Translations under genes and position numbers: made by a program
NCBI RefSeq assembly: GCF_023656545.1
Contig: NZ_JAMOKF010000002.1
Location: 1 to 64,000, forward strand
Reading direction: 5' to 3'
DNA: 64,000 bases
Source of the DNA: Micromonospora phytophila
Lineage (GTDB): Bacteria; Actinomycetota; Actinomycetes; Mycobacteriales; Micromonosporaceae
Part shown: positions 13,121 to 53,875 of the stretch, piece after piece
Layout: each line of letters begins with the position of its first letter
How positions within the stretch are numbered: position 1 is the first letter of the stretch
Notes under the pieces: generated by a model
Told to the model about the DNA's origin: nothing
Database searches by the model: none
The model's input: the letters and a program-made list of their open reading frames with translations, nothing else

Positions 13121-15472
13121 ATGGATGCGGTCTCGGCAGAGTTGAGTCGCGAGCAGAACTACTTCGACGCGGCTTGGGACCACCGGGAGCGCATGCGTAC
13201 GACTCTGGGTCTCGCCGCAGGCGCTGCCGCCAACAGCGGCGCCGCCGCGAGGATCAGGCAGGACACCCAAGCACGGCTCGAACGCATAGGCGGATCGGAC
13301 GAACCGGTCGCCTTCGGCCGGATGGATTACGAGGACGGCGAAGTCTTCTACATCGGCCATCACGCGATCTTTGATGACCACGCTGAGCTGCTCGTCATGA
13401 ACTGGCAGGCGCCTGCCGCCGCCCGCTACTACGAGGCAAGTCACGCCGAGCCGTTCGGGCTGCGGCTCAAGCGCAATTTCGAGTGCTCGAGCAACACGAT
13501 CAAGTCGTTCAGCGACACGGTGTTCGCCCAATTGGCCGCTGACGTCGCCGAGCTGGAGGCGCACGAGGAGGTCGACGACGCGCTCCTCGCAGACCTCAAC
13601 AGCAACCGCACCGGCACGATGCAGGACATCGTCCGGACGATCCAGGCAGCGCAGTTCGATCTCATCCGCGCCCCGATCGACCAACTGATGGTCATCCAGG
13701 GCGGGCCGGGCACCGGGAAGACAGCAGTTGCGCTGCACCGAGTCTCGTGGCTGCTGTTCAACAATCAGGGCCGGCTCTCCGCCCAGGATGTGCTCATCAT
13801 CGGGCCGAGCCCCACCTTCACGCGCTACACCCGCACGGTGCTGCCCAGCCTGGGTGATACGAGCATCGAGCAACGCGACATCAACCAGCTGCATCCACCG
13901 GTGAAACGCCATCGCCAAGAAGAACACGACGTCGTGAAGCTGAAGGGCGACGACAGGATGGCGGGGCTCGTGCGGCGGGCGCTCTACGCCCGGGTCGGGC
14001 CGCCCGAGGGACAGCACTGGGTCGAGGCGCAGATCGAGGGCCGCCCCGTACCGATCGCCGCCGAGGAGCTCAAACCGCTGATCATGCGGTGCCGTGCCAG
14101 CGCCGGCACATACTCCGAGCGCCGGCACCTGTTCCGGGACCTGCTGACCGACCTCGTCTCCCCCCGGGTCCGCGTGAACCCGCAACGACTGCGGACGGCA
14201 CTCGATCCCGTCATGGACCGGCTCTGGCCGTCGTTCACCGCCGCATCGTTCCTGCGTGAGCTCTACGGCTCCCGCGACAGACTGATGGCGGCGGCAGGCG
14301 ACGAATTCACGGCCCGGGAGGTGTCACTGTTGCACCGGCGGCCCGCCGATCGGCTCTCGGAAGAAACGTGGAGCGACGCCGACCTCGCGGTGCTCGACGA
14401 GGCCGAGCACCTGATCAACAGCGTGGAGGCCCGTTTCACGCACATCGTCGTCGACGAGGCCCAGGACCTCTCCCCCATGCAACTGCGAGCCATCGCCCGC
14501 CGCTCCGCCAACGGGTCCATGACCATCGTCGGAGACATCGCCCAGTCGACCGGCCACTGGGCGCGCGACGACTGGGACGAGCTCCTCGATCACCTACCCG
14601 CCGACCTTCCCCAGGTCCGCGAGGAACTGCGTTACGGCTACCGCGTACCTCGACAGGTCTTCGAACTTGCGGCCCAGCTCCTGCCCCTCGCCGCACCCAC
14701 TGTGCAGGCACCGCAGATCGTGCGGGACGGTCCGGCCGAACCTCTCATCCACCGAATCGACGGGGACGACCGCGCGGCGGAGGCCGTCCGCGTCGCGATG
14801 GGGCACGCCGCCCACGGCCGCTCCGTAGCCATCATCTGCCCCACTTCCTGCCGCCCCGACACCGAACGAGAGCTGAAGGCCAAAGACGTGGCCTGGCGTG
14901 CCGCGTCCGCCGGTGAGCTCGGCCCAGGAATCAACCTGGTCGGTCCGCAGGAAGCCAAGGGCCTCGAGTTCGACGCGGTCGTCGTCATGGAGCCGGAAGA
15001 CATCGTCGCCGAGGACGACCGGGGCCACCGCTTGCTGTACGTCGCACTGACCAGAACAACGAGGTATCTCGACATCGTCTGCGTCGGAGACCCGCTCGCG
15101 ATGAACGACGACGACGGCGAATCGGGCGAACCGACGACGGACGGCGAATTCTTCGCTGCGGGAACCGGCGATGCGGAGGACGGGTCGGAGTTCGAACCGG
15201 ACCCGTGGGGAGAAGTCCTCGACGAGTTGCTCGGTTCGAAGTCGGACACAGCCGACGGGTCAGTTGCGGAGGAGGTCAACGGCGGCCCGCACGTCGGTCC
15301 GCGCGCAGTGGTCGAGCCTTTCCACGCCCCGCCACCGCGAGGACACGTCTCTCAGCGGTTCGTCGACCTGGCGGCGGAGGAGGTGGTCGCACTACTCCGC
15401 GAAACTGTCGCGCCGAATTTATGGAAGTCCGTACTAGCCAGAGCGGGCGAGATCCTCGACGCAGAGGGCTGA
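13121..15472 (+). CDS. HelD-type UvrD-family ATPase (RNA polymerase-recycling, HelR-like)
   Basis: A 783-residue superfamily 1 protein. It opens with the HelD-type coiled region (LSREQNYFDAAWDHRERM), then FGRMDYEDGEVFYIGHHAIF and NWQAPAAARYYEA. Walker A GGPGTGKTAVALHR lies near residue 191, VVDEAQDLSPMQL near 443, and a motif VI-like ALTRTTRYLDIV near 641. HelD proteins bind RNA polymerase rather than DNA and release stalled complexes; actinobacterial HelR members help tolerate rifamycins. An unusual acidic Gly/Asp/Glu-rich stretch lies at about residues 670-740. The start has a GGAGGT site 9-10 nt upstream. Whether it has a defence role or is merely adjacent cannot be told. Confidence 0.85.
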   Translation: MDAVSAELSREQNYFDAAWDHRERMRTTLGLAAGAAANSGAAARIRQDTQARLERIGGSDEPVAFGRMDYEDGEVFYIGHHAIFDDHAELLVMNWQAPAAARYYEASHAEPFGLRLKRNFECSSNTIKSFSDTVFAQLAADVAELEAHEEVDDALLADLNSNRTGTMQDIVRTIQAAQFDLIRAPIDQLMVIQGGPGTGKTAVALHRVSWLLFNNQGRLSAQDVLIIGPSPTFTRYTRTVLPSLGDTSIEQRDINQLHPPVKRHRQEEHDVVKLKGDDRMAGLVRRALYARVGPPEGQHWVEAQIEGRPVPIAAEELKPLIMRCRASAGTYSERRHLFRDLLTDLVSPRVRVNPQRLRTALDPVMDRLWPSFTAASFLRELYGSRDRLMAAAGDEFTAREVSLLHRRPADRLSEETWSDADLAVLDEAEHLINSVEARFTHIVVDEAQDLSPMQLRAIARRSANGSMTIVGDIAQSTGHWARDDWDELLDHLPADLPQVREELRYGYRVPRQVFELAAQLLPLAAPTVQAPQIVRDGPAEPLIHRIDGDDRAAEAVRVAMGHAAHGRSVAIICPTSCRPDTERELKAKDVAWRAASAGELGPGINLVGPQEAKGLEFDAVVVMEPEDIVAEDDRGHRLLYVALTRTTRYLDIVCVGDPLAMNDDDGESGEPTTDGEFFAAGTGDAEDGSEFEPDPWGEVLDELLGSKSDTADGSVAEEVNGGPHVGPRAVVEPFHAPPPRGHVSQRFVDLAAEEVVALLRETVAPNLWKSVLARAGEILDAEG

Positions 15473-15603
15473 TCCACGGCCTCGTGAAGATCGGTCCAAC
15501 CATCCGACCAGCGGGGGCGGCACGCGATGGGATTGACCGGCGGTTCGGGAACAGCCCCGGCCAAGGGCAGCGTCCGCCGACCAGGCCCGATACGGTCGGC
15601 GAC

Positions 15604-16572
15604 ATGACGACAGTGGACACGACAAACGGCCTACCCGCGTTGGGCAAGCTCGACAGCGTCGAGGTTCGCGACGTCTGGAAGCACGAGGCGCACACCTTCA
15701 CGCCGTGGCTGCTCGCCAACGCCGAGGTCCTCGGTGAGGTGCTGGGAATGGACTTGGCACTCTCGGCCGCGGAGCACCCGGTGGGTGGCTTTTCGCTGGA
15801 CCTCATCGGCATCGACGAGGCGACCAACGAGACGGTCATCATCGAGAACCAGCTGGAGAGAACGGACCACAACCATCTGGGCCAACTCCTCACCTACGCG
15901 GGCGGGACCGACCCGGTGAACGTGGTGTGGATCGCGACCAGCTTCCGGGAGGAGCATCGCGCGGCCCTGGACTGGTTGAACACCAGGACCGATGAGAACA
16001 CCCGCTTCTTCGGCATCGAGATCAGCGCCGTACGGATCGGGCAGTCCGTTCCCGCACCGCTCATGCGCTTGGTCGTGCAGCCCAACGACTGGGGCAAGAG
16101 GGTAAGGGCGAGCACCCACGACGCCACGGCGAGCGGCCGCAACCAGGCCTACCAGTCGTTCTGGACGATGTTGCTGGCGGCTATCCAGCAGCGCCAGCTC
16201 CAGTGGACGACCTCAACCAAGGGGTACCCGCAGAACTGGTACTCGTTGCCGAGCGGTATGAGCGGGGTGTCCTACGCCTGCACGTTCAGTCGCTCCGGGT
16301 TGTCCAGCGAGATCTTCTTCCAGCACCCCGATCCGGCCGTAAATGACACTCGCTTCGCGGCGGCACAATCGAAGCTCGAACCGGCATACCCGGCGACCCT
16401 GTCCTTCGAACCACTGACCGGCAGGAAGGGGTGCCGCATCGCCGAATACCGAAAAGGCGACATCGTGAACACCGACGAGTGGAACGACTACGTCGAGTGG
16501 TTCATCGCTGCTCAGCTTCGCCTCCGCCAGGCGGTGGCCGCCGCTGGCGGTTTGCCCTCCCTCATTTCCTAG
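15604..16572 (+). CDS. DUF4268-domain PD-(D/E)XK-like protein
   Basis: A 322-residue protein starting at the ATG at 15604; the frame is open further upstream but that part overlaps the HelD gene out of frame. The N-terminal half carries a nuclease-fold pattern: FSLDLIG with Asp66, then VIIENQLE with Glu81 and Gln83, then HLGQLLTYAG. This E-x-Q variant replaces the usual E-x-K. The C-terminal half (from NQAYQSFWTMLLAAI) matches the DUF4268 pattern. Members are scattered among restriction and defence loci; nuclease activity is inferred only. It is followed after 18 nt by a second nuclease-like gene in the same orientation. Confidence 0.75.
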   Translation: MTTVDTTNGLPALGKLDSVEVRDVWKHEAHTFTPWLLANAEVLGEVLGMDLALSAAEHPVGGFSLDLIGIDEATNETVIIENQLERTDHNHLGQLLTYAGGTDPVNVVWIATSFREEHRAALDWLNTRTDENTRFFGIEISAVRIGQSVPAPLMRLVVQPNDWGKRVRASTHDATASGRNQAYQSFWTMLLAAIQQRQLQWTTSTKGYPQNWYSLPSGMSGVSYACTFSRSGLSSEIFFQHPDPAVNDTRFAAAQSKLEPAYPATLSFEPLTGRKGCRIAEYRKGDIVNTDEWNDYVEWFIAAQLRLRQAVAAAGGLPSLIS

Positions 16573-16590
16573 CCACGCCAAGGAAGACGC

Positions 16591-17640
16591 ATGCCGCTGT
16601 ACGAGATCCATGGGGACCGGCTACGCCGGCATGACGCCGCGCGGTTCGCGGCTCTCGGCATCTACGAGCGCAACGATCTGCAGCAGCTTCTCCGCGACGA
16701 CATCGCTGTGCTCAGTCCAGATTTGCTCGTCATCGCCGAGGAATTCGGGAACTGGGAGGACTCCCGGCGTCGCATCGACCTACTCGCGGTGGACAAAGCC
16801 GGACACCTGGTGGTCATCGAGCTGAAGCGTACCGACGACGGTGGCCACATGGAGCTGCAAGCTCTGCGGTACGCCGCGATGGTGTCCGCGATGAGCTTCG
16901 ACGAGGTTGTCGCCGCCTTTGAGGTGCACCTGTCGAAGGTACGACCGGATGCGGATGTCGACGCGCGGACCGAGCTCATCAGCTGGCTGGACCTGAGCGA
17001 CAGCGACGACGCGCCCATCATCTCCTCCGACGTGCGGATCCTGCTCGTCTCGGCGGACTTCGGCCGGGAACTCACCACCGCGGTGCTGTGGCTGAACCGC
17101 TTCGAGGGCATGGACGTGCGTTGTGTCCGGCTGATCCCCTACGAGATCGACGGGCGGGTCCTACTGGACATCCAGCAGGTCATCCCGCTCCCCGAGGCCG
17201 CCGATTATCAGATCCGAGTGGGCCGGAAGGTCACCGAACAGGAGCGGCGCAGCACCGACGGCCGGGACTGGACGCGCTACCACATCATCGTCGACGGCCA
17301 GCTCCTGCCGGACGAGAACAAGCGCCGTACGGTGCGGCTGATGATCGAGAAGTTGGTAGATCGCGGGGTGACTGCCGCGGCCATCGGGAAGGTCCTCACT
17401 CCCGGGCGCTTCCGGCCACTCGAGGGAGAGCACCACAGTGACGAAGAGGTCCAGGCCGCGCTGGCTGAGCAGTACCCCGGGGTGGAGGTCAGCCGCTGGT
17501 TCACCGGTCAGGCGCTGGTCGAGGACGGCAGGACCTGGGTGGTCCGCAAAATGTGGGGACGCAACACCGAGCCAACCCTCTCTGCCCTGCGGGACGCATT
17601 CCCCGCGGCCGGAGTCAGCTTCCAGCGAGCAAACCCTTGA
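16591..17640 (+). CDS. NucS-like PD-(D/E)XK nuclease-domain protein
   Basis: A 349-residue protein. The N-terminal 110 residues hold a well-kept PD-(D/E)XK core: RRIDLLAVD (Asp63), LVVIELKR (Glu77, Lys79) and Gln90-x3-Tyr94 in LQALRYAA. This resembles the endonuclease domain of NucS/EndoMS-type proteins and of DUF91-like families. The C-terminal 200 residues are a helical domain of unknown role (IRVGRKVTEQERRSTDGRDW onward). It lies 18 nt after the DUF4268 gene and 40 nt before the next gene, consistent with one operon. Confidence 0.75.
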   Translation: MPLYEIHGDRLRRHDAARFAALGIYERNDLQQLLRDDIAVLSPDLLVIAEEFGNWEDSRRRIDLLAVDKAGHLVVIELKRTDDGGHMELQALRYAAMVSAMSFDEVVAAFEVHLSKVRPDADVDARTELISWLDLSDSDDAPIISSDVRILLVSADFGRELTTAVLWLNRFEGMDVRCVRLIPYEIDGRVLLDIQQVIPLPEAADYQIRVGRKVTEQERRSTDGRDWTRYHIIVDGQLLPDENKRRTVRLMIEKLVDRGVTAAAIGKVLTPGRFRPLEGEHHSDEEVQAALAEQYPGVEVSRWFTGQALVEDGRTWVVRKMWGRNTEPTLSALRDAFPAAGVSFQRANP

Positions 17641-18408: not shown

Positions 18409-21400
18409 CTACCCCCGCAGTGCGACGTCATCGGTCCGGATCATCTCCTGCAGGTCGAGCAGGTGCTTCTCCGTGTAGCCAATCGTCACAGGCTCGCCGC
18501 AGAGCTCGACCCGCAGGCTGTTGCCGAGCCCACCCTCCACACTCGTCCTCCATTGCTGGATCTGCGACAGAAGTTCCTCGGATCGGACCTCGCCGTAAAG
18601 GAATTTGCTGGCGCAGGTCGGACAGAGGCACAGCGTGTTTCCCGGGCGACCGATCCAAGCGGCAGCCGTGTGCGAGACAAGGTGAATAACTTCGAAGTAG
18701 GGCACCCCGTCTCGCTTTGGAAAAGTCGCGGTGCAGACCTGACAGCGGCCGGCGTACTGCTCGAGCAGGAACTGGCGGACGGCGGGATCCTTCCCGTCCC
18801 AGACCTTGCGCCCGATGACGCGGAACCGGTCCTGCGGCGTGGGCTCGTCCGCCAGGCCTTCCCGGATGTCGTCCCGGGTCCGCTGCCGACGGACCGCAGG
18901 GGCTACCACTCGCTCGCCGGCGGCCAGCCGGCCATCCTCCGACTCGCCGTGCTCTGCGGGCTTGTCGAACGCATCTTCCACAGCAGCGGCGTACGCCTCG
19001 GGACTGAGACCGGTGCCGGCCGTAGCCTCGCCGCCGTCCTGATCCTTGTGCTCGCGGCGTTGACGCCACTGGTTCAGTTCGGCGATCACATCCGGGTTGT
19101 CGGCTACGAAGCGCAGCGTCTCCACCGGAACGTTCAGTTCTGCGCTCACCTGCACGATCGCGGACGAGACCATGCCGAGCACGTCGGCAAGGGCCTGGCT
19201 GGATTCGAAGTCGTCAGGTAGATCGTCCAGCGAAAGCTTGGCCGGCTCCATAAACTCGCCCGCGCCCGTCGAGAGCCACGCGTGAGAGACGGCGAGTTCC
19301 AGGGCCTTGGACATCGTCTCGACGGACTTGCTGTTCGAGTAGTCCTGCCGGCCTGCGGACTCCAGGATTCCTCGCAGCCGGCTCGCGTACGGCAGCAGCA
19401 GCCGATTCCACACGTACGCCGATCGCCGGCGATCAGGATGAGTCACGGCAGCTTCGAGGCCAGCGAAGCGTAGGTTCGGGTCGAACCCGTGCAGTCCGCG
19501 GCTGTGGTCGCCCCAGTCGGCGCGGAGGACGACGTGCCCGAGTGGGTTAGGCGGCGACGACAGCACCCGGACCGCCTGCGCCACCCCGAGAACGCTGAGC
19601 TCCTGTTGGTAAGGCCGATAGCGCTCGTGCAGAAACCAGCAGTGCGGGCTTGGCAGGAAGTAGTGCTCCAGATCCTCCTCCGACCAGTAGGCGACGGCGG
19701 GAGACCGAAACGAAAAGGCCGAAGCATGTGCTGGACGGCACTGCAGGAACGGCGTGCCGCGTAGCACCTCGACCAAGGTGTCCCTGCGTCTCCTCGTCGC
19801 AGCCTGCATGGCGCGGAAGATCTTCGCTAGATCGTCGTCGTGCTGCTCGTCGGCGATGGCACTGGACGGATTGCCGTACTTCGGCACGACGTACTCGAGA
19901 ACCTCGTCCACGGCGTCGGGCTCGGACAGGCCCAGTTCTTCGAGGAAGGCCCGCGCCTCTGAATTGGCAGCGACCTCCGCCCGCACCGTCGGGAAGCTCG
20001 ACGACACCGGGCCGGGCAGGTACGCCTGGGGACGTCCGTCGGCATCGAATGGCACCACCTGTCGACCGTCGTTTAGCCGGATCAGCGGTAGCTCCCGCGC
20101 GGGTCCCGGCCGGTTCCACGGCGGCCGCGGCCTGCGCCACAGTGCGGGGCTCTGGGCGAGAAATCGGTACAGCTGAACGAGCCACGCGTCCTCAGCTGAC
20201 TCCAGAAACGTCCTGTCGAGTTGGTCGACGAGCCACTCGGCGTCGAGCTCGTCGATGTCCACGACGTCGTGGAGGTAGTCCCACAGGTCGCGATTCCGCT
20301 CCCGGGTGAGCCGCACCGGCTGCCATTGCAGCGGCTCGCCCGTCCCCTCCAGCGCACCGAGTTGCTCCGGCGTCAACAACTCACGCAGCCCTGCGCTCCG
20401 CGCAAGACGCATCCGTGTGGCGGGAGCGTGTCCCAACGGTCCGGCGACCGGCAGAAGCGGTCGAGTCCGCACAGCCTCGAGAAGTGCGTCGAACAACGGC
20501 CGCAACAGGGAACCTTCGGGGAAATCCACCGCCGTGATGGGCAGGACGTCGAGCACGTCGATCCCAAGACGCCCCTTACGGCGCAGCTCCTCGAGAGCCT
20601 CGATCAGCAGGTGGCCGGCTTCCACGATGACTCGGGCGTTGTCCGGATCCCGCTCCGGGATGTTGTCCCGTGCCGGGGTCGTTCGCAGCGGCGCCTGCAA
20701 CAGGAACCCCAGGCCGCTCGGCTTGTCGGTGGGGAAGTACACGACCAGTGGCGCGTGGGGGATGCGTTCGACGGGAGCATATGGCGCCCCACTCGTCCGC
20801 TTGAAGGCCATCTCGACTCGCCGGCCGGGGTGCCCGATGCTGTCCAAACTTCGGCGGAAGACCTCCCAGTACTGGTGGTTGATCACCCGATCGTTCTGCC
20901 AAGCCACCAGCTCCACGTCCGACGACAACTCGCCGCGCTCCAGCCGGGTGAAGGTGACCGCTCCGCTGCCTCCCACCACCGTGACCCGCCTGACGTGCTG
21001 AAGGAACAGCAGAGTCACCGGATCAAACCTCGTCAGACCGCTGCCGATCTCGGAGTACGCCCGCTCGCTCGGCACATCCTCACGGTCGAAGGGGAACTCG
21101 AACCGGGTAAGGCGTTCGGGCCGGTCCAGCGGGGCGGCGGTGGCCTCGGGGCGGACGTAGTGGCGGATGCGGAAATGCTCAGCGCCGGAGTGCACCACGG
21201 GCGCCAGGGTGTAGGCGTAGACAGACTTGAAGCCGATGCCGAATTTGCCGATGCTGGTCAGCTCGCTGGATTTGGTGGAGGCGTCAACCCCGCAGATACC
21301 CCGGACGTCCCGCTCGTTGAACGGGCGGCCGTCGTGCTCGACGACGAGTCGGTCCGGGTGCAGGGTGAACGTGACATGCGACGCCCGAGCATCCTCGGCG

Positions 21401-21528
21401 TTCTGAAGCAGCTCAAGGATGAAATGAGTGCGGTCGGCGTACAGCCGTTGCAGAAAGTCCAGGTGGCGGGTGCCCTCGCCGTACTCCCGGATGTTGTCCT
21501 CGCGGATGCGGGTGTAGTCACTCGGCAT
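18409..21528 (-). CDS. GHKL (sacsin/Hsp90-like) ATPase with C-terminal HNH-like zinc domain
   Basis: A 1039-residue protein. The N-terminus is a sacsin-type GHKL ATPase: ILELLQNAEDA (Glu39, Asn43) as the N-box, EHDGRPF as the G1 box, and SIGKFGIGFKSVY as the G2 box. The centre is long and unrecognised. The C-terminus, from about residue 915, holds CQVC, then FEVIHLVSH and GNTLCLCPTCASKF. This is the layout of an HNH endonuclease, except that the histidine usual after the last cysteine is alanine. It may therefore be a zinc-stabilised binding domain or an altered nuclease. Its start overlaps the end of the SNF2-type helicase gene by 11 nt, so the two proteins are probably made together and act together. 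Confidence 0.8.
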   Translation of the reverse strand: MPSDYTRIREDNIREYGEGTRHLDFLQRLYADRTHFILELLQNAEDARASHVTFTLHPDRLVVEHDGRPFNERDVRGICGVDASTKSSELTSIGKFGIGFKSVYAYTLAPVVHSGAEHFRIRHYVRPEATAAPLDRPERLTRFEFPFDREDVPSERAYSEIGSGLTRFDPVTLLFLQHVRRVTVVGGSGAVTFTRLERGELSSDVELVAWQNDRVINHQYWEVFRRSLDSIGHPGRRVEMAFKRTSGAPYAPVERIPHAPLVVYFPTDKPSGLGFLLQAPLRTTPARDNIPERDPDNARVIVEAGHLLIEALEELRRKGRLGIDVLDVLPITAVDFPEGSLLRPLFDALLEAVRTRPLLPVAGPLGHAPATRMRLARSAGLRELLTPEQLGALEGTGEPLQWQPVRLTRERNRDLWDYLHDVVDIDELDAEWLVDQLDRTFLESAEDAWLVQLYRFLAQSPALWRRPRPPWNRPGPARELPLIRLNDGRQVVPFDADGRPQAYLPGPVSSSFPTVRAEVAANSEARAFLEELGLSEPDAVDEVLEYVVPKYGNPSSAIADEQHDDDLAKIFRAMQAATRRRRDTLVEVLRGTPFLQCRPAHASAFSFRSPAVAYWSEEDLEHYFLPSPHCWFLHERYRPYQQELSVLGVAQAVRVLSSPPNPLGHVVLRADWGDHSRGLHGFDPNLRFAGLEAAVTHPDRRRSAYVWNRLLLPYASRLRGILESAGRQDYSNSKSVETMSKALELAVSHAWLSTGAGEFMEPAKLSLDDLPDDFESSQALADVLGMVSSAIVQVSAELNVPVETLRFVADNPDVIAELNQWRQRREHKDQDGGEATAGTGLSPEAYAAAVEDAFDKPAEHGESEDGRLAAGERVVAPAVRRQRTRDDIREGLADEPTPQDRFRVIGRKVWDGKDPAVRQFLLEQYAGRCQVCTATFPKRDGVPYFEVIHLVSHTAAAWIGRPGNTLCLCPTCASKFLYGEVRSEELLSQIQQWRTSVEGGLGNSLRVELCGEPVTIGYTEKHLLDLQEMIRTDDVALRG

Positions 21529-24500
21529 GGCTGATCGTCAGCACTCCCTCTGCGATCCGATGGCTGACGATGTCGACCCTGCGGCGTTCCTCCAGCTGCG
21601 CATGGCGCTGCTCGAACTTCCGGACGGCGCGGGCTCGTTGTCCCGTCAGCATCGTCCGGATTCGAGGCTCGGTCTCGCCGGTGAGGCGGTCGTCGATTCG
21701 CCGCAGGCCTCGCTGGTGGTGGGCTTCTAGGCTTCCGGTTCGGCGGGCCAGCAACACCTGGTTGAGGGCGTGAGCGTCCCTCGCGGCGTCTCGGCGGCGA
21801 TGCTCGGCGTAACGGTCAAGTGCCGCTCCCGCCTCCCGGAGGTCGGCGGCGGGTCCGGCCTCCCCGGGCAGCGCGTTGGCGAGCAGCGCGAAGAGGCGGC
21901 GCTCCACGAGCCGGTTGGCCGTCAGCCGGGTTGCGTCCACGACGAACGACACGGTGCGGAACTCCGGCCGCACCGCGATCGTCTCCCAGGTGTCACAGGC
22001 AAAGACGTAGCGGCCTTCCGGCAGATCCGTATCGATGACGCGAAGCTGCGCGCGCAGCTGCTGGTCCTGAGCGGGGGCGAGGGCAGACACCGCGAGGCGA
22101 ACGAGCGGATGGGTGGCGGTCAAGAAGGTGATCGACCGATCCCGGCTGGCTGCCTCGTCGGAGAAGGTCAGCCGCAGGCCGCTGTCCTTCCCGTTGAGCC
22201 AGTGGCGCAGCTGCTGGACGGGCCGGCCGCCGCCGAGCCTCGCCTCGTTCCGGCTGATGGCGTCGAGCAGTTCTGACCGAGCGGACTGAGGCAGTCGGAG
22301 CCGCAGCTCGTCCTCGGACAGCCGGTCCAGGTGCCCGGAGAGAGGGGGCCGTGTCAGGTACGCGCGGACCAGTTCCTCCAGCTGCTGTTCGGTGACCGCC
22401 CGGCCCTCTTCGACGAGGGCGTCGAGGTCCTGGGTGAGGCTGTCGTCCAAGCCAAGCAGGTCCTGGCTCGCGTCCTCGACGCCTCGGGTCTCGGCGACCA
22501 GCCGGACGGCGTTGTCGGCGAGCTGTCGAGCCCGCTCCTCCATCTGCTCGGGCGTCAGGTCCGGGCTGGTGGCGATGGCCGCCAGGTCCTGCGTCATCTC
22601 GCCGAGCACACCTTCGAGGTCACCGACGGTGTCCCGGAAGAGGTCCAGCCGGTCCCAGCAGCGGTAGAACACCCGCTCCTCGACGGTGTCGGGGGTCACG
22701 AAGTTGAGGATCAGCACCTTCGGGCTGCGCTGCCCAAACCGGTCGATGCGGCCGATGCGCTGCTCGATCCGCATCGGGTTCCAGGGGATGTCGTAGTTGA
22801 CGAGCCGATCACAGAACTCGTAGTCGAGGCCCTCGCAGCCGACCTCGCTGGAGAGCAGGACGTCGATGGCCTCCGCATCTCCGCGGTCGAGGCGGAACCG
22901 GTCGCGCAAGCGCTGCCGGTCGGGCTCGGCCACTCGCCCGGTGACGACCCCGACGCGGACGCCGGCCGCCGTCAGGTGCTCGGCGAGGTAATCGAGGGTG
23001 CCGAGGAAGAACGAGAAGACCAGGAGCTTTCCGGGGCCATCCACCGCGCGGGCTTCGCGGACGGCCTGGAGGAGCCGCTGGAGTTTCGGATCGTCCGGCG
23101 GCAGTCGACGGGCCAGCTCACGGAGGTCCGGGTCCGTCGGAAGGGGAAGCCTCGGCGGAGCTTCGTCCGGATGGGCCTCGGGGGCGTCGGTCAGATCCGT
23201 GATGGCCGGCTCGCCGGCCGCCACGATGCGTCGAGCGAGGACGGGCAGGCAGCTCGACGCCTGACGCTCGAGAGTGTCGAGAATCAGGCGGACCACGACC
23301 GGGTTGTAGCGGGTGAGCAGCTGGTCGCGGCGGGCTTCCAGCAGGCGGTCGTAGAACTGGCGCTGCACCGGTGTGAACGGCACCGACACGGTGTGGGGCT
23401 CACGGATGGTGAACCCTCCGATGTCCCGTCGGCGGGTGCGGTTCACCAGTGGCGCGAGAGTGTTCAGCTCCTCGATCTCGCGCACGCAGCGGACCCGGTC
23501 GTCGGTGGTCAAGGTGGCTGCGTCCAGACGCCTGCGCACGTCGTCGTACCGGGGGTCGATCGCGATGGCCTGCCGGCCCCAGCTGGTGTACGCCGCGGTG
23601 TCCAGCGCCTTGAGCGCCTCCTTGGCGGCCTCGGGCGCACCGCTGCGCAGTGCCCGTACGGCGGCGTTGAGGTGTCGATTGGGCTCGACGACCTCGAAGA
23701 ACGTCTGCCGATCGGGAAACAGGTCCGGGCGGAGGAGGTTGAGCAGGGTGAACAGGTCCCGGGCCTGCGTCTGCACCGGTGTGGCCGAGAGCAGGACGAG
23801 GGCAGTGCTGATCTCGCTCAAGTACTCGGCGAGCTCGTGCGAGTTCGTGCCCGGCGTACGCAGATGGTGTGCCTCGTCGGCGATCACCAGGTCGAAGGCG
23901 GGCGGCGGGTCCAGCTCGCGCAGGCCCTTGTCCTTCTTCCGCTTGGCACCTCCCTTCAGGTATGCCGTGCGGGCGAAGAGCTCGTAGTGCACGATCGCCC
24001 GCCGGTACTCCTCGGGCCAGGCACCGTCAAGGTGGGCCTCGTTGAGGCAGTAGCGCAGGCTCGCCGAGTCGAGCACCCGGAAGTCCTCGTCGAAGCGGCG
24101 CATCTCCTCGCGCCACTTAACCGTGAGCGCCTTGGGGCAGAGGACCAGCACGTGGTCCAGCGGCTGGCGGGCAGCCAACTCCTTCATGATCAAGCCAGCT
24201 TCGATGGTCTTACCGACGCCGACGTCGTCAGCGATGAGCAGCCGCGGCTCGTCGGCGCGGGCGAGGCGCAGGAGCGGCCGGAACTGAAACGGCACGTACT
24301 TGATCCGCGCTGCCCGCAGCGAATAGACGTGATCGGTGAGCGGGTGGCTGAGCCGGGCAGCGACCAGGCGGGCTCGGAACTCCTCGGGAGACAGGCCGCC
24401 AGTCGTTGCCTCCTGTTGCGCCGCCGCGAGCACCAGCTGGTCCTCCGCGTACTCGCGCATGCTTCCGGCCTCATGGAAGACGCGATAGCGGCCGAACCCA

Positions 24501-24586
24501 TCGACGCTCTGAAGAATCTGGATGACCGGTCCGACTCGACTGGGGTCGGCTTGAACGGCAACGATGTCACCGACGTTGAATGCCAC
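21518..24586 (-). CDS. SNF2-type helicase-like ATPase
   Basis: About 1022 residues from a GTG at 24586 that gives VAFNVGDIVAVQADPSRVG, a beta-rich N-terminal domain. The open frame extends upstream into the GIY-YIG gene and that part is not protein-like. SF2 motifs are clear: ADDVGVGKTIEAG near residue 122, VIADEAHHLR near 234, LLSATPVQTQARDLF, and RIEQRIGRIDRFGQ near 614. It resembles HepA/RapA-like and DrmD-like translocases of defence islands. The tail (after residue 700) is helical and charged. It is paired with the GHKL ATPase gene downstream by overlap; the pair is likely an anti-phage unit, by inference. Confidence 0.85.
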   Translation of the reverse strand: MAFNVGDIVAVQADPSRVGPVIQILQSVDGFGRYRVFHEAGSMREYAEDQLVLAAAQQEATTGGLSPEEFRARLVAARLSHPLTDHVYSLRAARIKYVPFQFRPLLRLARADEPRLLIADDVGVGKTIEAGLIMKELAARQPLDHVLVLCPKALTVKWREEMRRFDEDFRVLDSASLRYCLNEAHLDGAWPEEYRRAIVHYELFARTAYLKGGAKRKKDKGLRELDPPPAFDLVIADEAHHLRTPGTNSHELAEYLSEISTALVLLSATPVQTQARDLFTLLNLLRPDLFPDRQTFFEVVEPNRHLNAAVRALRSGAPEAAKEALKALDTAAYTSWGRQAIAIDPRYDDVRRRLDAATLTTDDRVRCVREIEELNTLAPLVNRTRRRDIGGFTIREPHTVSVPFTPVQRQFYDRLLEARRDQLLTRYNPVVVRLILDTLERQASSCLPVLARRIVAAGEPAITDLTDAPEAHPDEAPPRLPLPTDPDLRELARRLPPDDPKLQRLLQAVREARAVDGPGKLLVFSFFLGTLDYLAEHLTAAGVRVGVVTGRVAEPDRQRLRDRFRLDRGDAEAIDVLLSSEVGCEGLDYEFCDRLVNYDIPWNPMRIEQRIGRIDRFGQRSPKVLILNFVTPDTVEERVFYRCWDRLDLFRDTVGDLEGVLGEMTQDLAAIATSPDLTPEQMEERARQLADNAVRLVAETRGVEDASQDLLGLDDSLTQDLDALVEEGRAVTEQQLEELVRAYLTRPPLSGHLDRLSEDELRLRLPQSARSELLDAISRNEARLGGGRPVQQLRHWLNGKDSGLRLTFSDEAASRDRSITFLTATHPLVRLAVSALAPAQDQQLRAQLRVIDTDLPEGRYVFACDTWETIAVRPEFRTVSFVVDATRLTANRLVERRLFALLANALPGEAGPAADLREAGAALDRYAEHRRRDAARDAHALNQVLLARRTGSLEAHHQRGLRRIDDRLTGETEPRIRTMLTGQRARAVRKFEQRHAQLEERRRVDIVSHRIAEGVLTISHAE

Positions 24587-24767: not shown

Positions 24768-25175
24768 CTATTCGCCACCCTCGGCGTCACGTGGCTTCGG
24801 CACCTGCCGGTTGAACCGCGGCTTGAAGGCGACGACGAGGGCTTCCTTCGCACCCTCCGGGTTGTCGGTCTCCTGCCAGCGGACCTCGCACCGACCCAGC
24901 CAGCCGGCGATGTCGGCAGCCGACGCCGCGTTGCCCGGGGTGTCGAGGAGCTGTCCGACCTGGTCGTGCAGCACCGACGAGTCGCGGTTGCCGTTCAGGT
25001 GCTGCCGGAGGCGATCCCGCATGCCCCGCCTGGTCCGGCCGACGTAGATGACCACCCCGCCGTCGAGGACCACGTGCACGCCAGGGGCGCGGGGAGCGTC
25101 GGCGACAGTCTCCATGGTGTGCGGCTGGGGAGCCGTGAAGCCGGCCAGCAGGTCGTCGTGCGCGGTGTCGGGCAT
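24768..25175 (-). CDS. GIY-YIG nuclease-family protein
   Basis: About 135 residues from the ATG at 25175. The core reads GVHVVLDGGVVIYVGRT followed by RDRLRQHLNG, matching the GIY-YIG fold (GVH in place of GIY; IYVGRT as the YIG motif with the following Arg). A late Glu in GAKEALVVAFKPRFN fits the catalytic glutamate and the FNRQ end common in the family. It is a single small domain with no visible DNA-binding partner. It starts 10 nt after the preceding small gene and ends 181 nt before the SNF2-type gene. Confidence 0.7.
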   Translation of the reverse strand: MPDTAHDDLLAGFTAPQPHTMETVADAPRAPGVHVVLDGGVVIYVGRTRRGMRDRLRQHLNGNRDSSVLHDQVGQLLDTPGNAASAADIAGWLGRCEVRWQETDNPEGAKEALVVAFKPRFNRQVPKPRDAEGGE

Positions 25176-25185
25176 CCCCGGGACG

Positions 25186-25449
25186 CTACCGCCGTGGACC
25201 CTCATCCGCGGCCCCGCACGGGCCGTCGTGGTCGTCGCGGCGTCGGCAGCGGCCGGCCCCGTCGAGCTTGGCGTCACACCAGATTCGGGTCCGCAGGAAC
25301 TGGCGATCCTCCTCGCTGAGGGTGGTTTCGCCGAAGTCGATGGCGGTGACGTGACCGAGCGAGTCGCGTAGGGCTACGGCCAGGGTGATGGCCCCGTCGA
25401 GGTTGGTCAGGGTGGTGGGGAGGTGAATGATCCAGCGGGGTGCGGTCAT
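25186..25449 (-). CDS. small hypothetical protein
   Basis: An 87-residue product starting MTAPRWIIHLPTTLTNLD. It is beta-strand-like at first, with a charged and cysteine-containing tail (RIWCDAKLDG, RDDHDGPCG). Its ATG overlaps the stop of the DivIVA-like gene by 4 nt, so the two are translationally coupled. No function recognised. Confidence 0.6.
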   Translation of the reverse strand: MTAPRWIIHLPTTLTNLDGAITLAVALRDSLGHVTAIDFGETTLSEEDRQFLRTRIWCDAKLDGAGRCRRRDDHDGPCGAADEGPRR

Positions 25450-28778: not shown

Positions 28779-31553
28779 TTAGAAGCAGAATCCTGCTGCG
28801 GGGCGACGAGCTGCAGGACTGCGTGCAACCTCCTCGAAGCGCGAGTGCAAACGAAGCAGCACCTCGGCGTCGAGGGCGGCGTAGGTCACCTGGCTCTCGG
28901 TGAGAGGTCGCCGGGTCCAATCCCCGGCCTGCTCCCTCTTATCGAGCTCCACGCCGAGCTCACGCGCGCAGACGTCGCGAAGGCTGTGGCCACTAGCGGC
29001 GCGGCGGAGCCGGCGCGACACGTCGCGCGTATCCAGCACGGCATCCAGGGCGAAACCGTGCCGGCCGAGGACTTCGCGCTCGAATGAGGCGTAGTGGATC
29101 AGCTTCGTCGTCTCGGCGCTCGCGAACAACCGGCCGAGAGGCTCCAAATCGGGAAGCTCGAGCGCGTCGATGAGGTAGGTCGCTTCCCGACCCGCCACCT
29201 GAATCAGGCAGAGCGTGCGATTCGCGAGTGTGGTTTCGACGTCGAGGCCTACGACGGGTTCGGACACCAACGCGGCGACCGCTGCCTCGAGCTGCGGCTG
29301 CGTGCGCACCCAGAGCAGCGGTCGACCATTCTCTCGACGCAGGAGGGGCAGGTCCGCGAGGGTCCCCTCGAACTGGGCGATGCGCTCCGCGTCGCCACGG
29401 GTTAGCGTCCGAACGCCATCAGGCAAGCGAGCTAGACTGGTTTCGGTCCCCGAAAGCCACCGCCAGGCACCTCCGACGTCGAGCAGGTAGCCGGCGACTA
29501 CCTCGCGCTCGACCCACGGCGGCATCAGCGGTTGGAACTTGCTGAGGCGATAGCTCGGGAGCGATTCGCCGACCTGTGACCAGAGGCGGTGGTTCTCCCA
29601 GAATTCGGGCTCCGCCAGCTTGGTGAGCGCATCCCGGAACCGGCGCCTATCAATATCCTCACCCCGCACCTTGATCAAGAAGTTGTCAGGGATGACCTTC
29701 CAATCTCCCCCGACCGCTTCGAGCGCGTATCGAAGCGTCGCATTGATGCGCCCTCCGGCGAAGGTCCACCAGCGAATCTCCCCCTCGTCGAACTCGATGC
29801 CTCCGCGCTGGGAGTCGATGATTTCGCGCATGGAATCGCGATGCTCGGCGAGCACCGCCCACGCCGCGTCGTCGAGGTAGGGAAAGCGCTCATCGCTCAG
29901 GAGCACCGACAGAATGCGCTGGCAGACGTCGAAGCCGAGGAACTGCGGAAGAAAGCCGCCCCACGTGGGCTGGCGTCCACGGGGGGCCGCTTCGACGACC
30001 ACGCGGCGATCCTCGTGCCGCACTTGAAGGACGGCCCATGCGCGTCCCCCGAGCAGGAAGCTGCTGACGCCATCGACGAGTCGGTCGACGAAGGCCTGGT
30101 TCAACGAGCCGAGAGGCTGGCCGCCGGCGGTTTGTACCGTGTAGGTTTGCGGGCTTGAGAAGACCGCAAAGAGCTCCATGAAGTTCTTGCGCCCGAAACG
30201 GCGTTCCGCTTTCGGCCCGAGGACCAGCCGGCCCCCTACGAGCCGTAATGCGCCGTCGCGTACCATCCATTTCAGTAGACGATCATATTCGGCCCGGTGA
30301 ATGCCCTGGAAGTCCGATACGCCCGCCAGGTGCTCCCAGGCGTCGTCGGCGGCGATCCCGTCACTCGCCAGCGCCATAGCAAGCAGCTGGTGGATAAGCA
30401 CCGGCCAGCAGCGACGCTCTACCTCGACCGCTTCGACCCAGCCGGCCTTGGCCAGCTCGACCAAGGCGATGGCCTGCAGTACGCCCTCGGTCGTCTGACA
30501 GAAGAACGTGGTGTTGGCTGCTTGCCCCGCTCGCCGCCCCGTTCGCCCCATGCGCTGCAGGAACGAACTCACGGTGTCAGGCGCTTCCGCCTGCAGGACC
30601 CGATCGAGGTCGCCGACGTCGATGCCCAGCTCCAGGGTGGAGGTGCACACGATGCAGGCGTCGCTGCCGTGATGAAAGCGCTCCTCAGCGAGCTGGCGCT
30701 CTTCTCGAGACACTGCGCTGTGGTGGACGAACACGGCGGTGCCGTCGCGCCTCATGTACTCGGCGACCGCCTCCGTGGTGGAGCGGGACTGGCAGAAGAA
30801 CAGGCTCTTCTGCCCCGTCGCGACGCGCGCCGCGTCACGGGAAAGCTCTGCGAGATTCCGGCGATGGGCAACCAGGACCTGCCGACGCCCCGGTTGCTTC
30901 GGAGGGCTGACCACGCGTCCCGGCCGATTCGATGTGCCCTGGAGCCATGTGAGAATCGCCTCTGGGTTGCCAACGGTCGCGGACAGCCCCACGCGCTGGA
31001 CGTCATGCTTGGAGATGCGCGCCAGGCGTTCGAGCACGCTCATCAAGTGGGCGCCCCGGTCGGAACCTGCCAACGCGTGGACCTCATCGATGACCACGGT
31101 CCGCAGATCGGCGAAGAGCTTGTTCTCGTCCACACGCGGCGACACCAGCATCACTTCGAGCGATTCCGGCGTCGTCATCAGGAGCTCGGCAGGTTCCCTG
31201 AGAAACTGACGGCGGGGGTGGTCCGGCGTGTCGCCGTGCCATACGAAGCGCCGTAGGCCGACCATCTCGGTGTAGAGCCCGAGTCGGTCAGCCTGGTTGT
31301 TCAGCAGCGCCTTGATGGGCGCGACGTAGAGTGCGCCTACCCCTTCCGGCTCGTTCTCGACCATTTGTGAAAGGGTCGGGAACATCGACGCTTCGGTCTT
31401 GCCGCCGGCGGTGGGTGCCAAGATGACCGCGTTGTCGCCAGCAAGCAGCGCCTCGCCCGCCTCTTCCTGCACCGGACGCAGGCTCGACCAACCGAGCCGG
31501 GAAACGATCGCCTGTTGCAGGCGCGGTGCGAAGCGGGCAAAGACGCTCACCAC
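28779..31553 (-). CDS. brxHI: BREX type 6 Lhr-like helicase with C-terminal 3'-5' exonuclease domain
   Basis: A 924-residue protein, last gene of the BREX operon. The N-terminus is an Lhr-like SF2 helicase: LAPTAGGKTEA near residue 48, VVIDEVHALAG near 155, LSATVGNPEA and QRMGRTGRR. The C-terminal 170 residues form a DEDD exonuclease of the RNase D/WRN type: GLDVETT near 768, IHYASFEREVL, LDTRDVSRRL and TYAALDAEVLLRLH, with the Asp-x-Glu, middle Asp and Y-x3-D all visible. It overlaps brxD by 7 nt. In BREX the helicase is thought to help during host methylation or phage exclusion; its exact role is not settled. Confidence 0.9.
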   Translation of the reverse strand: MVSVFARFAPRLQQAIVSRLGWSSLRPVQEEAGEALLAGDNAVILAPTAGGKTEASMFPTLSQMVENEPEGVGALYVAPIKALLNNQADRLGLYTEMVGLRRFVWHGDTPDHPRRQFLREPAELLMTTPESLEVMLVSPRVDENKLFADLRTVVIDEVHALAGSDRGAHLMSVLERLARISKHDVQRVGLSATVGNPEAILTWLQGTSNRPGRVVSPPKQPGRRQVLVAHRRNLAELSRDAARVATGQKSLFFCQSRSTTEAVAEYMRRDGTAVFVHHSAVSREERQLAEERFHHGSDACIVCTSTLELGIDVGDLDRVLQAEAPDTVSSFLQRMGRTGRRAGQAANTTFFCQTTEGVLQAIALVELAKAGWVEAVEVERRCWPVLIHQLLAMALASDGIAADDAWEHLAGVSDFQGIHRAEYDRLLKWMVRDGALRLVGGRLVLGPKAERRFGRKNFMELFAVFSSPQTYTVQTAGGQPLGSLNQAFVDRLVDGVSSFLLGGRAWAVLQVRHEDRRVVVEAAPRGRQPTWGGFLPQFLGFDVCQRILSVLLSDERFPYLDDAAWAVLAEHRDSMREIIDSQRGGIEFDEGEIRWWTFAGGRINATLRYALEAVGGDWKVIPDNFLIKVRGEDIDRRRFRDALTKLAEPEFWENHRLWSQVGESLPSYRLSKFQPLMPPWVEREVVAGYLLDVGGAWRWLSGTETSLARLPDGVRTLTRGDAERIAQFEGTLADLPLLRRENGRPLLWVRTQPQLEAAVAALVSEPVVGLDVETTLANRTLCLIQVAGREATYLIDALELPDLEPLGRLFASAETTKLIHYASFEREVLGRHGFALDAVLDTRDVSRRLRRAASGHSLRDVCARELGVELDKREQAGDWTRRPLTESQVTYAALDAEVLLRLHSRFEEVARSPAARRPAAGFCF

Positions 31554-32872
31554 ACATCCTCGGTCGGCACCAACCCGTCCGCCTCGTCATCGAGGTCGAC
31601 GAGGCGAGCACCGGAAAGGACATACTGCTCCTCGGTGCTGAGCTCCTTGGCCTGAAACCCGTGCTCAGACATGGGCTCGTAGTCCGCATGTTCCTCGACC
31701 AGGTCGAGCTGGGTGACGAACTCGCGCAGGAACTGGCGCGGCACCACGCCGACGTCACCCTTGAAGCCCGCGGTCACCTCCGCCACCAGCCGCTCCACGA
31801 AGGCCGTGCTGATCTTCTGGTCGAGGCGGCCACGGTCCGACGTGGGGAATAGCTCCCGAAGACGAAGGGCGACCGACCGAAGCCGATCGGCGTCGAAGGG
31901 GACGAGCTCGAGCTGGGCCTGTCGCAAGCTAGCGAAGCGGCCCTGCTTCAGGAAACGGATCCGGTCGTGAAGCGGCGCGAGGCCAGCGACGCCATGCCGC
32001 GTGTCGAAGAATTCCGGCGTGCCCGTGAAGACCCACGCCATGCCGGGATAGCTGCCCGCTGCGTCGGCAATCTGCCGAATCCCGTTCAGCGACTTGTGCC
32101 GCGAATCCGAACGCATGCGGAGGATGGTTTCGGCCTCGTCGATGACGATGATGAGCCCCGCGTAACCGGCAGCCTTCACGATCTCGAGCACTCCCCGCAG
32201 GTAGTCGAGGGCATCGCGGCTCTCAATGTCCCCCTTGATGCCGGCGGCCTTCTTGGCCGATGCGGCGACGTTGCCGCTGCCGCACAGCCAGGAGATGAGA
32301 GCTCCTGCCTCCGCGACTTCTCCCTTCTGCTTCAGCTCGAAGATGGTCTGAATGACGCGAACGAAGTCCTGGGGCGCTTGACCGCCCGTCATGGCCGCGA
32401 GGTCTTCGGCGAGGCGCTTCTGCACCTTGGCGTCGAAGGCTGGGTCCGAGTCGTCCTCTCCGGCCGCGACGAGGCTTTCCTCCACGCGGCCGATCCACCG
32501 GTCGAGGACGTCGCTCAGGGCTCCTCGTGAGCATGACGCGGTCCCGAGCTCCGTCAGCACCTTGCGATACACATCGTCGAAGCGGTGGAACTTTAGATCA
32601 TTGTCGGAGACCACGACGAAGCTGGTCGCGAACCCCCGAGCCTGCGCATCCAGCAGCGCGAGGCGCGCCATGAAGGTTTTGCCGCAACCGTAGCCGCCGC
32701 GGAGGAACTTGACGGTGCCCTCGCCGCTCCTCGCGAAGTCGAGCTGTCGATGCAGTTCTCCGCGTTGCTTTTCGATGCCGACGGCGAACGCGTCGATACC
32801 CCGCTCGGGCACGAGGCCTTTGCGTAGCGACTCGAAGACGTGCTCGACGTCCTTCTGGGTCAGAATGCTCAT
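31547..32872 (-). CDS. brxD: BREX ATP-binding protein BrxD
   Basis: A 441-residue P-loop ATPase of the DUF2791 type. Walker A is LRGGYGCGKTFMAR near residue 61 and Walker B GLIIVIDEAETIL near 244. AWVFTGTPEFFD and a DRIRFL motif follow, as in ORC/Cdc6-like BrxD proteins. The start (MSILTQKDVEHVFESL) is fixed by a 4-nt overlap with pglZ. BrxD is present in BREX types 2 and 6, usually just before the Lhr-like helicase, as here. Confidence 0.92.
   Translation of the reverse strand: MSILTQKDVEHVFESLRKGLVPERGIDAFAVGIEKQRGELHRQLDFARSGEGTVKFLRGGYGCGKTFMARLALLDAQARGFATSFVVVSDNDLKFHRFDDVYRKVLTELGTASCSRGALSDVLDRWIGRVEESLVAAGEDDSDPAFDAKVQKRLAEDLAAMTGGQAPQDFVRVIQTIFELKQKGEVAEAGALISWLCGSGNVAASAKKAAGIKGDIESRDALDYLRGVLEIVKAAGYAGLIIVIDEAETILRMRSDSRHKSLNGIRQIADAAGSYPGMAWVFTGTPEFFDTRHGVAGLAPLHDRIRFLKQGRFASLRQAQLELVPFDADRLRSVALRLRELFPTSDRGRLDQKISTAFVERLVAEVTAGFKGDVGVVPRQFLREFVTQLDLVEEHADYEPMSEHGFQAKELSTEEQYVLSGARLVDLDDEADGLVPTEDVW

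Positions 32873-35792: not shown

Positions 35793-35796
<4 letters not shown>
32869..35796 (-). CDS. pglZ: BREX phosphatase-fold protein PglZ
   Basis: A 975-residue alkaline phosphatase-superfamily protein, one of the two hallmarks of BREX. Metal-site motifs are VVDALRFEMGEE near residue 499 and VFTSDHGFLLLDD near 662, with an HGGNSLQERVIP segment typical of PglZ near 740. The N-terminal third (WVRRQGVVVWLDQTGHYGGF) and the C-terminal winged-helix-like segment are also family features. PglZ forms complexes with other BREX subunits and is required for both methylation and phage exclusion. It overlaps both neighbours by 4 nt. Confidence 0.93.
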
Positions 35797-40103
<4,307 letters not shown>

Positions 40104-40119
40104 GGTCGTCGTCCTCCGG

Positions 40120-43748
<3,629 letters not shown>

Positions 43749-43752
<4 letters not shown>

Positions 43753-45977: not shown

Positions 45978-46114
45978 TGTCCGGCTCCCACAGGTCGTAA
46001 GACGCGGCTCCCGCTCGCGCCCTCGTCGGACGCGGCAAGAAGGTATCACGATCATCAGGGAGCGTTGAAGCTCGGCCCAGATCGACGAGACTCTGCCAGA
46101 CTCGGTCAGAACAT

Positions 46115-53782: not shown

Positions 53783-53875
53783 GGTACAAGTTCCAGTGTT
53801 TTCCAGCAATCCCCCGCGAGCGGGTTGTTTGTTGACGCAACAATACTTAGCGTCGTGCCTGGAAGGGAGACCCGT
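53783..53875. promoter_or_regulatory. divergent promoter with TTGTTG-ACG-CAACAA operator
   Basis: This 93-bp gap separates the starts of the two operons of the candidate defence module. A perfect 15-bp palindrome with 6-bp arms lies at 53829-53843, near its centre and surrounded by the AT-richest stretch in the neighbourhood. GTTGAC inside it could serve as a -35 element for the rightward operon. The palindrome suits a dimeric repressor or activator that would control both directions at once. No regulator gene is found in either operon. Confidence 0.6.

Follow-up and report, generated by a model that had tools for sequence, protein, structure and literature searches.

What could a helicase gene and an overlapping gene for an Hsp90-like ATPase do as one unit? 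The locus that raises this question lies in Micromonospora phytophila (contig NZ_JAMOKF010000002.1, positions 1 to 64,000, the 64,000-nt stretch that we call the window), where an SNF2-type helicase gene is followed by a gene that joins a GHKL ATPase to a C-terminal HNH-like zinc domain. A first reading from the sequence only had proposed that the pair is a two-gene defence unit. Comparison of the pair with its relatives shows that the two genes travel together, that both predicted ATPases keep their motifs, and that the HNH domain, though its zinc site persists, no longer has its nuclease residues. We read the pair, with a probability of about one half, as a mobile two-gene defence module in which a RapA/DrmD-like translocase and an Hsp90/sacsin-type ATPase would be joined by a dead HNH zinc domain (coordinates in Table 1).

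The two proteins and the degenerate HNH domain

Both proposed members of the pair are present on the minus strand with their motifs kept, and on recomputing their overlap we again obtained exactly 11 nt. We placed the helicase start at the GTG codon because similarity to a Chloroflexota helicase begins there and because a stop codon stands ~11 codons upstream in the close relative G1191; the mechanical open reading frame (ORF) extends to 24853. The helicase motifs DVGVGKT, DEAH and QRIGRIDR are all intact, and the protein matches Pfam SNF2-rel_dom (3.2e-20) and Helicase_C (5.5e-16). It resembles RapA in a search of solved structures (E 2.8e-36) and, in PADLOC, DrmD, with residues 1-906 aligned to model positions 1-901 of 1040 (1.3e-126), but it scores only 311.8 bits against the NCBIfam DrmD model, under the curated cut-off of 610.

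The GHKL part of the second protein is a predicted sacsin-type ATPase, as the sequence-only reading had described it, in that it passes a curated cut-off and keeps the N-box and G2 motifs. Pfam and NCBIfam both assign the domain to sacsin (SACS, 1.7e-15; P_loop_sacsin, 94.6 bits with a cut-off of 50), and the protein also matches the solved sacsin structure (E 3.7e-5). Residues E39, N43 and D46 and the motif G94-x-F96-G97-x-G99-F100-K101 are invariant in all 15 aligned GHKL proteins, the window's included.

The fate of the C-terminal domain turns on a few histidines. In HNH nucleases, as known from the colicins, the first and the last two histidines bind the metal and the second is the base. 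The C-terminal domain aligns with the HNH domain of EcoKMcrA (6ghc_A, E 1e-4), which we number as in the 6ghc chain, and Ile948, His949, Asn964, Ala973 and Leu977 of the window protein stand opposite H238, H239, N253, H262 and H266. H239 and N253 are kept, and H238, H262 and H266 are replaced. The sequence-only reading had noticed an alanine at the last HNH histidine position, and Ala973 does stand opposite H262, but it is not the sole loss, as three of the four histidine positions are gone.

We counted the residues over 19 rows, the truncated L064 among them; because five rows are close Micromonospora, three are rhizobia and others are also near relatives, they do not stand for 19 independent events. 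The zinc ligands C929, C932 and C969 are cysteine in 19/19 rows, and position 972 is cysteine in 17 and histidine in 2. Histidine occurs in no row at positions 948 and 977 and in a single row at position 973, while the base position 949 is histidine in 6/19 (E in 4, Q in 4, N in 2, and S, R and Y in 1 each). Position 964 is asparagine in 17/19. At position 973, alanine is the majority residue (12/19), so that the suggestion that alanine is the rule holds as a tendency, but it is no strict rule, with threonine in three rows and C, H, Y and L in one each. A sequencing oddity at Ala973 was rejected since alanine is the majority residue across independent genomes. The true rule of this domain is the predicted loss of the catalytic metal site: the zinc-cysteine pattern and the similarity to EcoKMcrA-like HNH domains are present, and the full set of catalytic histidines is found in 0/19. 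As a control, three Chloroflexota proteins that the same profile matches weakly (G939, G897 and G859) retain the paired histidines, and no SNF2-profile or GHKL-profile match was found at their loci (10-17 kb).

Two other histidines, His1022 (19/19) and His978 (13/19; tyrosine in the window), are kept in the degenerate domain without explanation. In G1229 (L050:7714-12501), the GHKL frame runs ~360 aa past the HNH-like domain and carries two CSCG motifs.

Co-conservation, co-variation and exchangeable heads

At all 18 of the 18 loci where the C-terminal domain is present and its flank can be read, the helicase gene is adjacent and on the same strand. These loci span Actinomycetota, Alphaproteobacteria (rhizobial plasmids), Chloroflexota, a methanogen plasmid and an unassigned gut contig, and the proposal that the two genes form a pair has thus survived the outcome that would have spoken against it, a failure to be conserved together. 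Outside this count stand L016 (G147), where the helicase is adjacent and the contig ends before the C-terminal domain, and the truncated L064. The head of the partner protein is GHKL at 17 loci and ribosomal protein S16 at one. The helicase gene comes first at all loci but G800, where the order is reversed, and at the eight loci where the junction was measured it ranges from the 11-nt overlap in Micromonospora to a 5-nt gap in Methanomethylovorans hollandica.

With the GHKL protein as query and the window's genome counted each time, relatives were found in 8 of 160 Micromonospora species, 4 of 397 genomes of the order and 3 of 396 genomes of the phylum, where two of the three lack the C-terminal domain. 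The helicase profile matched 7 of 400 Chloroflexota at E <= 1e-120, and in G777, G1154 and G800 the helicase adjoins a partner with the C-terminal domain. A profile of that domain alone returned 3 of 316 genomes of the class (the window's genome, G1387 and G1514) and 4 of 321 Chloroflexota (G777 plus three ordinary HNH proteins); G1154 and G800 were either not drawn in this Chloroflexota scan or fell below its threshold. Plasmid searches added two Rhizobium, one Ensifer and M. hollandica, a search of a phage collection added two unannotated gut scaffolds (L063 among them), and viral contigs scanned with the gut protein yielded no relative. Four relatives of the GHKL protein lack the C-terminal domain (Chryseobacterium, Sulfuricurvum, G453 and G766), and beside them no such helicase was seen in the DNA that was read; for G766 and G453 this is a contig of only 3.6 and 6.6 kb, respectively. 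In the Chloroflexota genome G1157 (L037:3372-10713), two SNF2 genes of the wider helicase family lie side by side, with no GHKL match.

Next to this co-occurrence stands a co-variation. Among 10 representatives, a set without close relatives, L064, G1387 or the S16 protein, pairwise helicase distances correlate with those of the C-terminal domain at r 0.875 (p 0.0001) and with those of GHKL residues 5-800 at r 0.466 (p 0.004). The partial correlation of helicase and C-terminal domain given the GHKL part is 0.84, and the values for helicase and GHKL part given the C-terminal domain and for GHKL part and C-terminal domain given the helicase are 0.19 and 0.07. A sliding window along the GHKL protein with 8 representatives places the switch near residue 800, as r runs between 0.17 and 0.62 up to residues 721-850, reaches 0.75 at 761-890 and stays at 0.91-0.94 from 801-930. 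With 8 representatives, the helicase/C-terminal r also stays between 0.89 and 0.95 when any one is left out and exceeds the helicase/GHKL r in 300/300 bootstraps. In the trees of the helicase and of the C-terminal domain, G1154 groups with the rhizobia, G1200, G1229 and G1514 (support 100 and 99.8), a grouping that the GHKL core tree rejects in the approximately unbiased (AU) test (p-AU 0.026). From these comparisons, we conclude that the C-terminal domain co-varies with the helicase, not with the GHKL region to which it is fused.

The same comparison shows that the GHKL part is exchangeable, as seen in the GHKL core of G1154 and in the S16 domain of G777. In G777, a Chloroflexota metagenome-assembled genome (MAG), the gene after the helicase encodes 413 aa, with ribosomal protein S16 (Pfam 5.8e-24) where the GHKL part would otherwise stand. 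This genome also encodes an ordinary S16 protein from a separate gene, and the two S16 sequences are clearly alike by eye. Escherichia coli bS16 is described in a review as a DNase that nicks DNA and as a binder of cruciform DNA (PMC10931766).

The helicase can also be extended. Those of G1154 and of the gut contig L063 have a common N-terminal extension (31.9% identity over 113 aa, E 2e-16) with an R-x4-H motif, and R-x4-6-H with N, D or H following the R is given as the signature of HEPN RNases (PMC3710099). Against solved structures the extension found nothing convincing (best E 0.64), and an HEPN effector on some of the helicases is a lead suggested by a motif seen by eye.

Table 1. Positions of the gene pair, its domains and its neighbours (window coordinates unless a contig is named)
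Feature	Position	Strand	Basis or remark
RapA/DrmD-like SNF2 helicase of superfamily 2 (SF2), 1022 aa, GTG start	21518..24586	-	Pfam, PADLOC, RapA structures, motifs
Predicted sacsin-type GHKL ATPase with degenerate HNH zinc domain, 1039 aa, ATG start	18409..21528	-	Pfam, NCBIfam, PADLOC
GHKL ATP-binding domain, residues 26-117	21178..21453	-	E39, N43, D46, G94-K101 motif; sacsin structure match at 26-117
Degenerate HNH zinc domain, residues 900-1034	18427..18831	-	C929, C932, C969, C972, Asn964, invariant His1022; 6ghc_A alignment and 19-row counts
Ala973 codon	18610..18612	-	Opposite H262 of 6ghc_A
GIY-YIG-like small protein, candidate accessory gene	24768..25277, conserved part from ~25181	-	Pfam GIY_YIG_2, 24.9 bits (cut-off 22.4)
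PDC-S11 candidate-defence pair, two genes	15205..17640	+	PADLOC 1.2e-105, 9.8e-129; neighbour on the other side, outside the pair
BREX type 6 cluster (BrxHI, BrxD, PglZ-6, PglX, BrxC, BrxB, weak BrxA)	28779..46533	-	Island neighbour, outside the pair
S16 and degenerate HNH fusion	L007:7251-8492		Beside helicase, Chloroflexota G777
Helicase N-terminal extensions	L063:9356-9920; L032 near 12010-11500	- (L032)	R-x4-H motif: RNDWAH, RNRWAH

Proposed mechanism, neighbouring genes and rival explanations

We propose that the pseudo-HNH domain is a socket that would bind the helicase, or DNA held by the helicase, and that the GHKL part may be an ATP-gated dimerizing clamp, by analogy with the MORC/paraMORC ATPases found beside SF2 helicases and with the GHKL head of VcSduA. 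The helicase would move on invading DNA and the clamp would then close on that DNA, and phage or plasmid DNA trapped in this way would have its replication or transcription blocked. Cutting, if there is any, could be done by another part, such as the GIY-YIG protein in Micromonospora, the S16 head in G777 or the HEPN-like extension in G1154 and the gut contig, or alternatively by neighbouring systems such as bacteriophage exclusion (BREX) and restriction-modification (R-M).

Several points weigh against this reading. Four of the seven Chloroflexota helicase matches (G1002, G810, G854 and G1157) and the plasmid helicases of Sphingobium, Leptolyngbya and Cyanobacterium have no GHKL/C-terminal partner in the stretch read. 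The correlations come from only 10 sequences, whose pairwise distances are not independent, and much of the contrast between helicase/C-terminal and helicase/GHKL values rests on one genome, because dropping G1154 from 8 representatives lifts the helicase/GHKL r from 0.49 to 0.74. The group given to the AU test was picked after the distance tables had been seen, and its p is modest; the trees came from quick searches, and that of the C-terminal domain is weakly supported inside (37-44, among others) and has two very long branches. The S16 fusion is known from one MAG contig only. The clamp step is one that we infer by analogy, and two AlphaFold models made from six-row alignments are of low confidence (mean predicted local distance difference test scores of 52.6 and 44.0). 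Finally, with His1022 and His978 conserved, another active site in the C-terminal domain is still conceivable.

That active site is the core of one rival explanation, in which the C-terminal domain still functions as a nuclease through a rearranged site (e.g., Asn964, His978 and His1022) and the pair a helicase-nuclease restriction unit. These three residues are conserved as counted above, and the nearest solved relative of the domain is a restriction enzyme. We nonetheless hold this to be quite unlikely, since histidine is a minority at the base position and all but absent from the three ligand positions, whereas the three HNH relatives found with the same profile do retain their paired histidines. 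A nuclease acting by the HNH mechanism, as the principal explanation of the locus, was rejected on the same counts.

That the pair is a defence unit, as first proposed, is suggested by its neighbourhood: defence genes lie in the read flank of 10/18 loci, a count that stands without a background rate from random regions. The PADLOC flank scans, over flanks of unequal length, covered the loci other than M. sicca, G777, G1154, G800 and G1387, and the window scan took in 17 proteins rather than all ORFs. G1200, with one ORF scanned, gave no PADLOC match, and G1191 and G1514 gave weak or helicase-type matches only. The flanks differ in what they hold: type I R-M in M. musae; ZacB downstream in G335; Leo genes downstream and a close DrmD match (1282 bits) 11-14 kb upstream in G1189; Lamassu genes in Rhizobium BT03; an ABC-three-component system in R. 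bangladeshense; a Mokosh-like protein in Ensifer; and, in M. hollandica, an annotated methyltransferase, helicase and restriction endonuclease together with a GajB-like helicase.

In the window itself, the pair stands between the PDC-S11 genes and a BREX type 6 cluster. The cluster is recognised by NCBIfam BREX_PglZ_6 (1268 bits) and BREX_BrxD (529 bits), by PADLOC BrxHI, PglX and BrxC and by Pfam BrxB; BrxA falls under its cut-off, and upstream ORFs in the cluster are without a match. The C-terminus of the BrxHI protein (residues 748-908) matches an RNase D-like 3'-5' exonuclease (rnd, 4.4e-23, below the curated cut-off). The PDC-S11 pair consists of a DUF4268 protein and a NucS-like protein, and homologues of one or both adjoin the GHKL gene in M. 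sicca and M. musae, with no match in the G335 stretch. Just outside PDC-S11, positions 13121-15472 (+) encode a HelR/HelD-like RNA polymerase recycling motor (340 bits, curated cut-off 1100). Further island content includes a GmrSD_N protein at 47935-50271 (-) and, at 53348-60739 (+), an SMC-like ATPase and, after it, a DUF4011/AAA helicase that carries an MTES_1575 nuclease domain.

The BREX neighbours allow a different explanation, namely that the pair is a BREX accessory, a stand-in for BrxL or another helicase, and not independent. BREX genes lie within ~20 kb, in the read flank, at 4/18 loci: the type 6 cluster ~4 kb from the pair in the window; PglW, PglX, BrxC/PglY, BrxD and BrxHI ~4 kb upstream in G335; PglZ and BrxL ~17-20 kb upstream in G1229; and PglX and PglZ upstream in L063, with ~20 nt between the PglZ stop and the opening of the helicase frame and with the contig end ~0.7 kb past the GHKL gene. 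L063 (MT835838.1) carries the GenBank label Bacteriophage sp. and reads as a bacterial BREX island whose PglX is interrupted by other genes. A constant BREX association was not found, however, as no BREX genes were seen in the flanks read at the other loci, several of which have other systems (the type I R-M, Lamassu, ABC-three-component, Mokosh-like and annotated R-M genes listed above). Moreover, the four associations are of three types, where we take PglW as the mark of type 2 and BrxL as that of type 1, and differing types are expected of a pair that merely lives in islands. We regard the accessory role as unlikely.

The small gene upstream of the helicase raises the question of whether the unit has two genes or three. 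A GIY-YIG homologue precedes the helicase gene in each of the five closely related Micromonospora loci (window, M. sicca, G335, G1191 and M. musae), and because of this the unit may be more than a two-gene one. A three-gene Micromonospora system, with a GIY-YIG nuclease effector, a helicase motor and a GHKL switch, would fit this arrangement, but the gene is broken across two frames in M. musae and lies ~0.9 kb from the helicase in G1191, and the DNA retrieved around the loci of G1189, G1200, G1229, the rhizobia, Chloroflexota and the archaeon gave no match at E 1e-3. Plain linkage may suffice, since the small genes further upstream, for a DivIVA-like and a 168-aa protein (25446-26212, minus strand), are also syntenic in M. 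musae, G335 and G1191. The three-gene system thus seems to us very unlikely. In G1191, a second upstream protein is GIY-YIG-like by eye (L066:6885-7859, -). At three rhizobial loci, a gene for 176-184 aa overlaps the helicase start (L017:8283-8837, L018:8297-8827 and L019:8294-8824) and is sigma-factor-like by eye; neither this gene nor the archaeal upstream gene matches a Pfam family.

The resemblance of the helicase to RapA and the description of sacsin as a chaperone (PMC3710099) would also suit a housekeeping role in DNA repair or in transcription recycling, with a RapA-like protein and a chaperone working outside defence. Such a role we consider highly improbable, given that the pair is found in so few Micromonospora species, is plasmid-borne in the rhizobia and the methanogen and often lies beside defence genes; sparse occurrence in the genus, plasmid carriage and defence neighbours together form the pattern of a mobile accessory system. 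A bolder form of the mobile defence module is tentative and in our view doubtful: the dead nuclease would be a socket for exchangeable heads, usually a sacsin/Hsp90-type clamp and in one MAG a duplicated S16, with an HEPN-like helicase extension as an option and with the whole module set inside a gut BREX operon after pglZ, and defence would come from trapping DNA, with nicking or RNA cleavage optional.

Comparison with known systems

No single PADLOC 2.0.0, NCBIfam 20.0 or Pfam model spans the pair, and among the matches listed from openly accessible papers we recognised none as describing a sacsin/GHKL and SNF2 pair. The sequence-only reading could not put a name to the system, and a match to a named system, which would have overturned it, has not turned up.

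The closest relative of the GHKL part in PADLOC is found with TmtA, a label that we take to stand for Tiamat, a single-gene system. Residues 26-461 match TmtA at 9.7e-50, and the N-terminal region of Tiamat is a GHKL region of the same kind as the pair's. The TmtA models run to 1063-1782 aa, however, and the likeness lies in their N-terminal part only: the match is confined to the first 461-555 aa of the GHKL protein, with best stretches at model positions 68-509 of 1486 and 35-578 of 1302, and no whole-model match was found. Single-gene working of the Tiamat kind is disfavoured because the helicase is conserved beside the gene at every one of the 18 loci, and a Tiamat gene with a chance neighbour was rejected for the same reason. 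We know of no SNF2 partner or degenerate HNH domain in Tiamat. Tiamat has been listed among the systems of unknown mechanism (PMC10482375).

For the helicase, DrmD of the DISARM system is the nearest PADLOC family, but the NCBIfam cut-off is not reached. Among the families listed for the 17 PADLOC-scanned window proteins there is no DrmB or DrmC, and the sole match to a DrmA model is the SNF2 protein. A DISARM remnant was rejected, both on the bit score given above and because G1189 also has a far closer DrmD. RapA-like SNF2 helicases similar to the pair's serve in defence as BrxHII, in the BR-system and as ArmA of ARMADA, where, as far as the excerpted text of the two papers goes, the partners are PglX-type methylases, PglZ and YprA helicases and not a sacsin-type ATPase (PMC12839542, PMC12458937).

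Two further systems place a GHKL ATPase in a comparable setting. MORC and paraMORC ATPases are described in R-M operons beside SWI2/SNF2 (SF2) helicases, often with HNH nucleases, and DNA looping has been proposed for them (Iyer et al. 2008, PMC2292703). Their GHKL domain is of the MORC type, with a MORC-specific motif, GhXhhpXXRhl, that sits in the S5 domain, whereas the pair has a sacsin-type GHKL domain, an HNH domain that is fused and degenerate, and no methylase. VcSduA is a Shedu protein with a GHKL head, measured phage protection, a modelled dimer and a clamp-like middle domain (PMC12137116). It shares with the pair the use of a GHKL ATPase as the N-terminal head of a modular protein, but it ends in a PD-(D/E)xK nuclease that is predicted to be active, and the excerpted text of that paper mentions no helicase partner. 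EcoKMcrA has a homologous HNH domain with the same zinc-cysteine pattern, and the metal site is predicted to be gone from the pair's domain.

If our reading is right, the sacsin-type bacterial GHKL ATPases, the Tiamat-like ones included, would gain an actual physical partner and with it an interface that can be tested, Hsp90-like clamps would be linked to RapA-like helicases in defence as MORC is to SF2 helicases, and the C-terminal domain would be an example of a restriction nuclease domain repurposed as an adaptor. It also raises the question of whether the module replaces a BREX part in some operons. In comparison with the systems above, we call the pair a new variant among the already known helicase and GHKL defence units.

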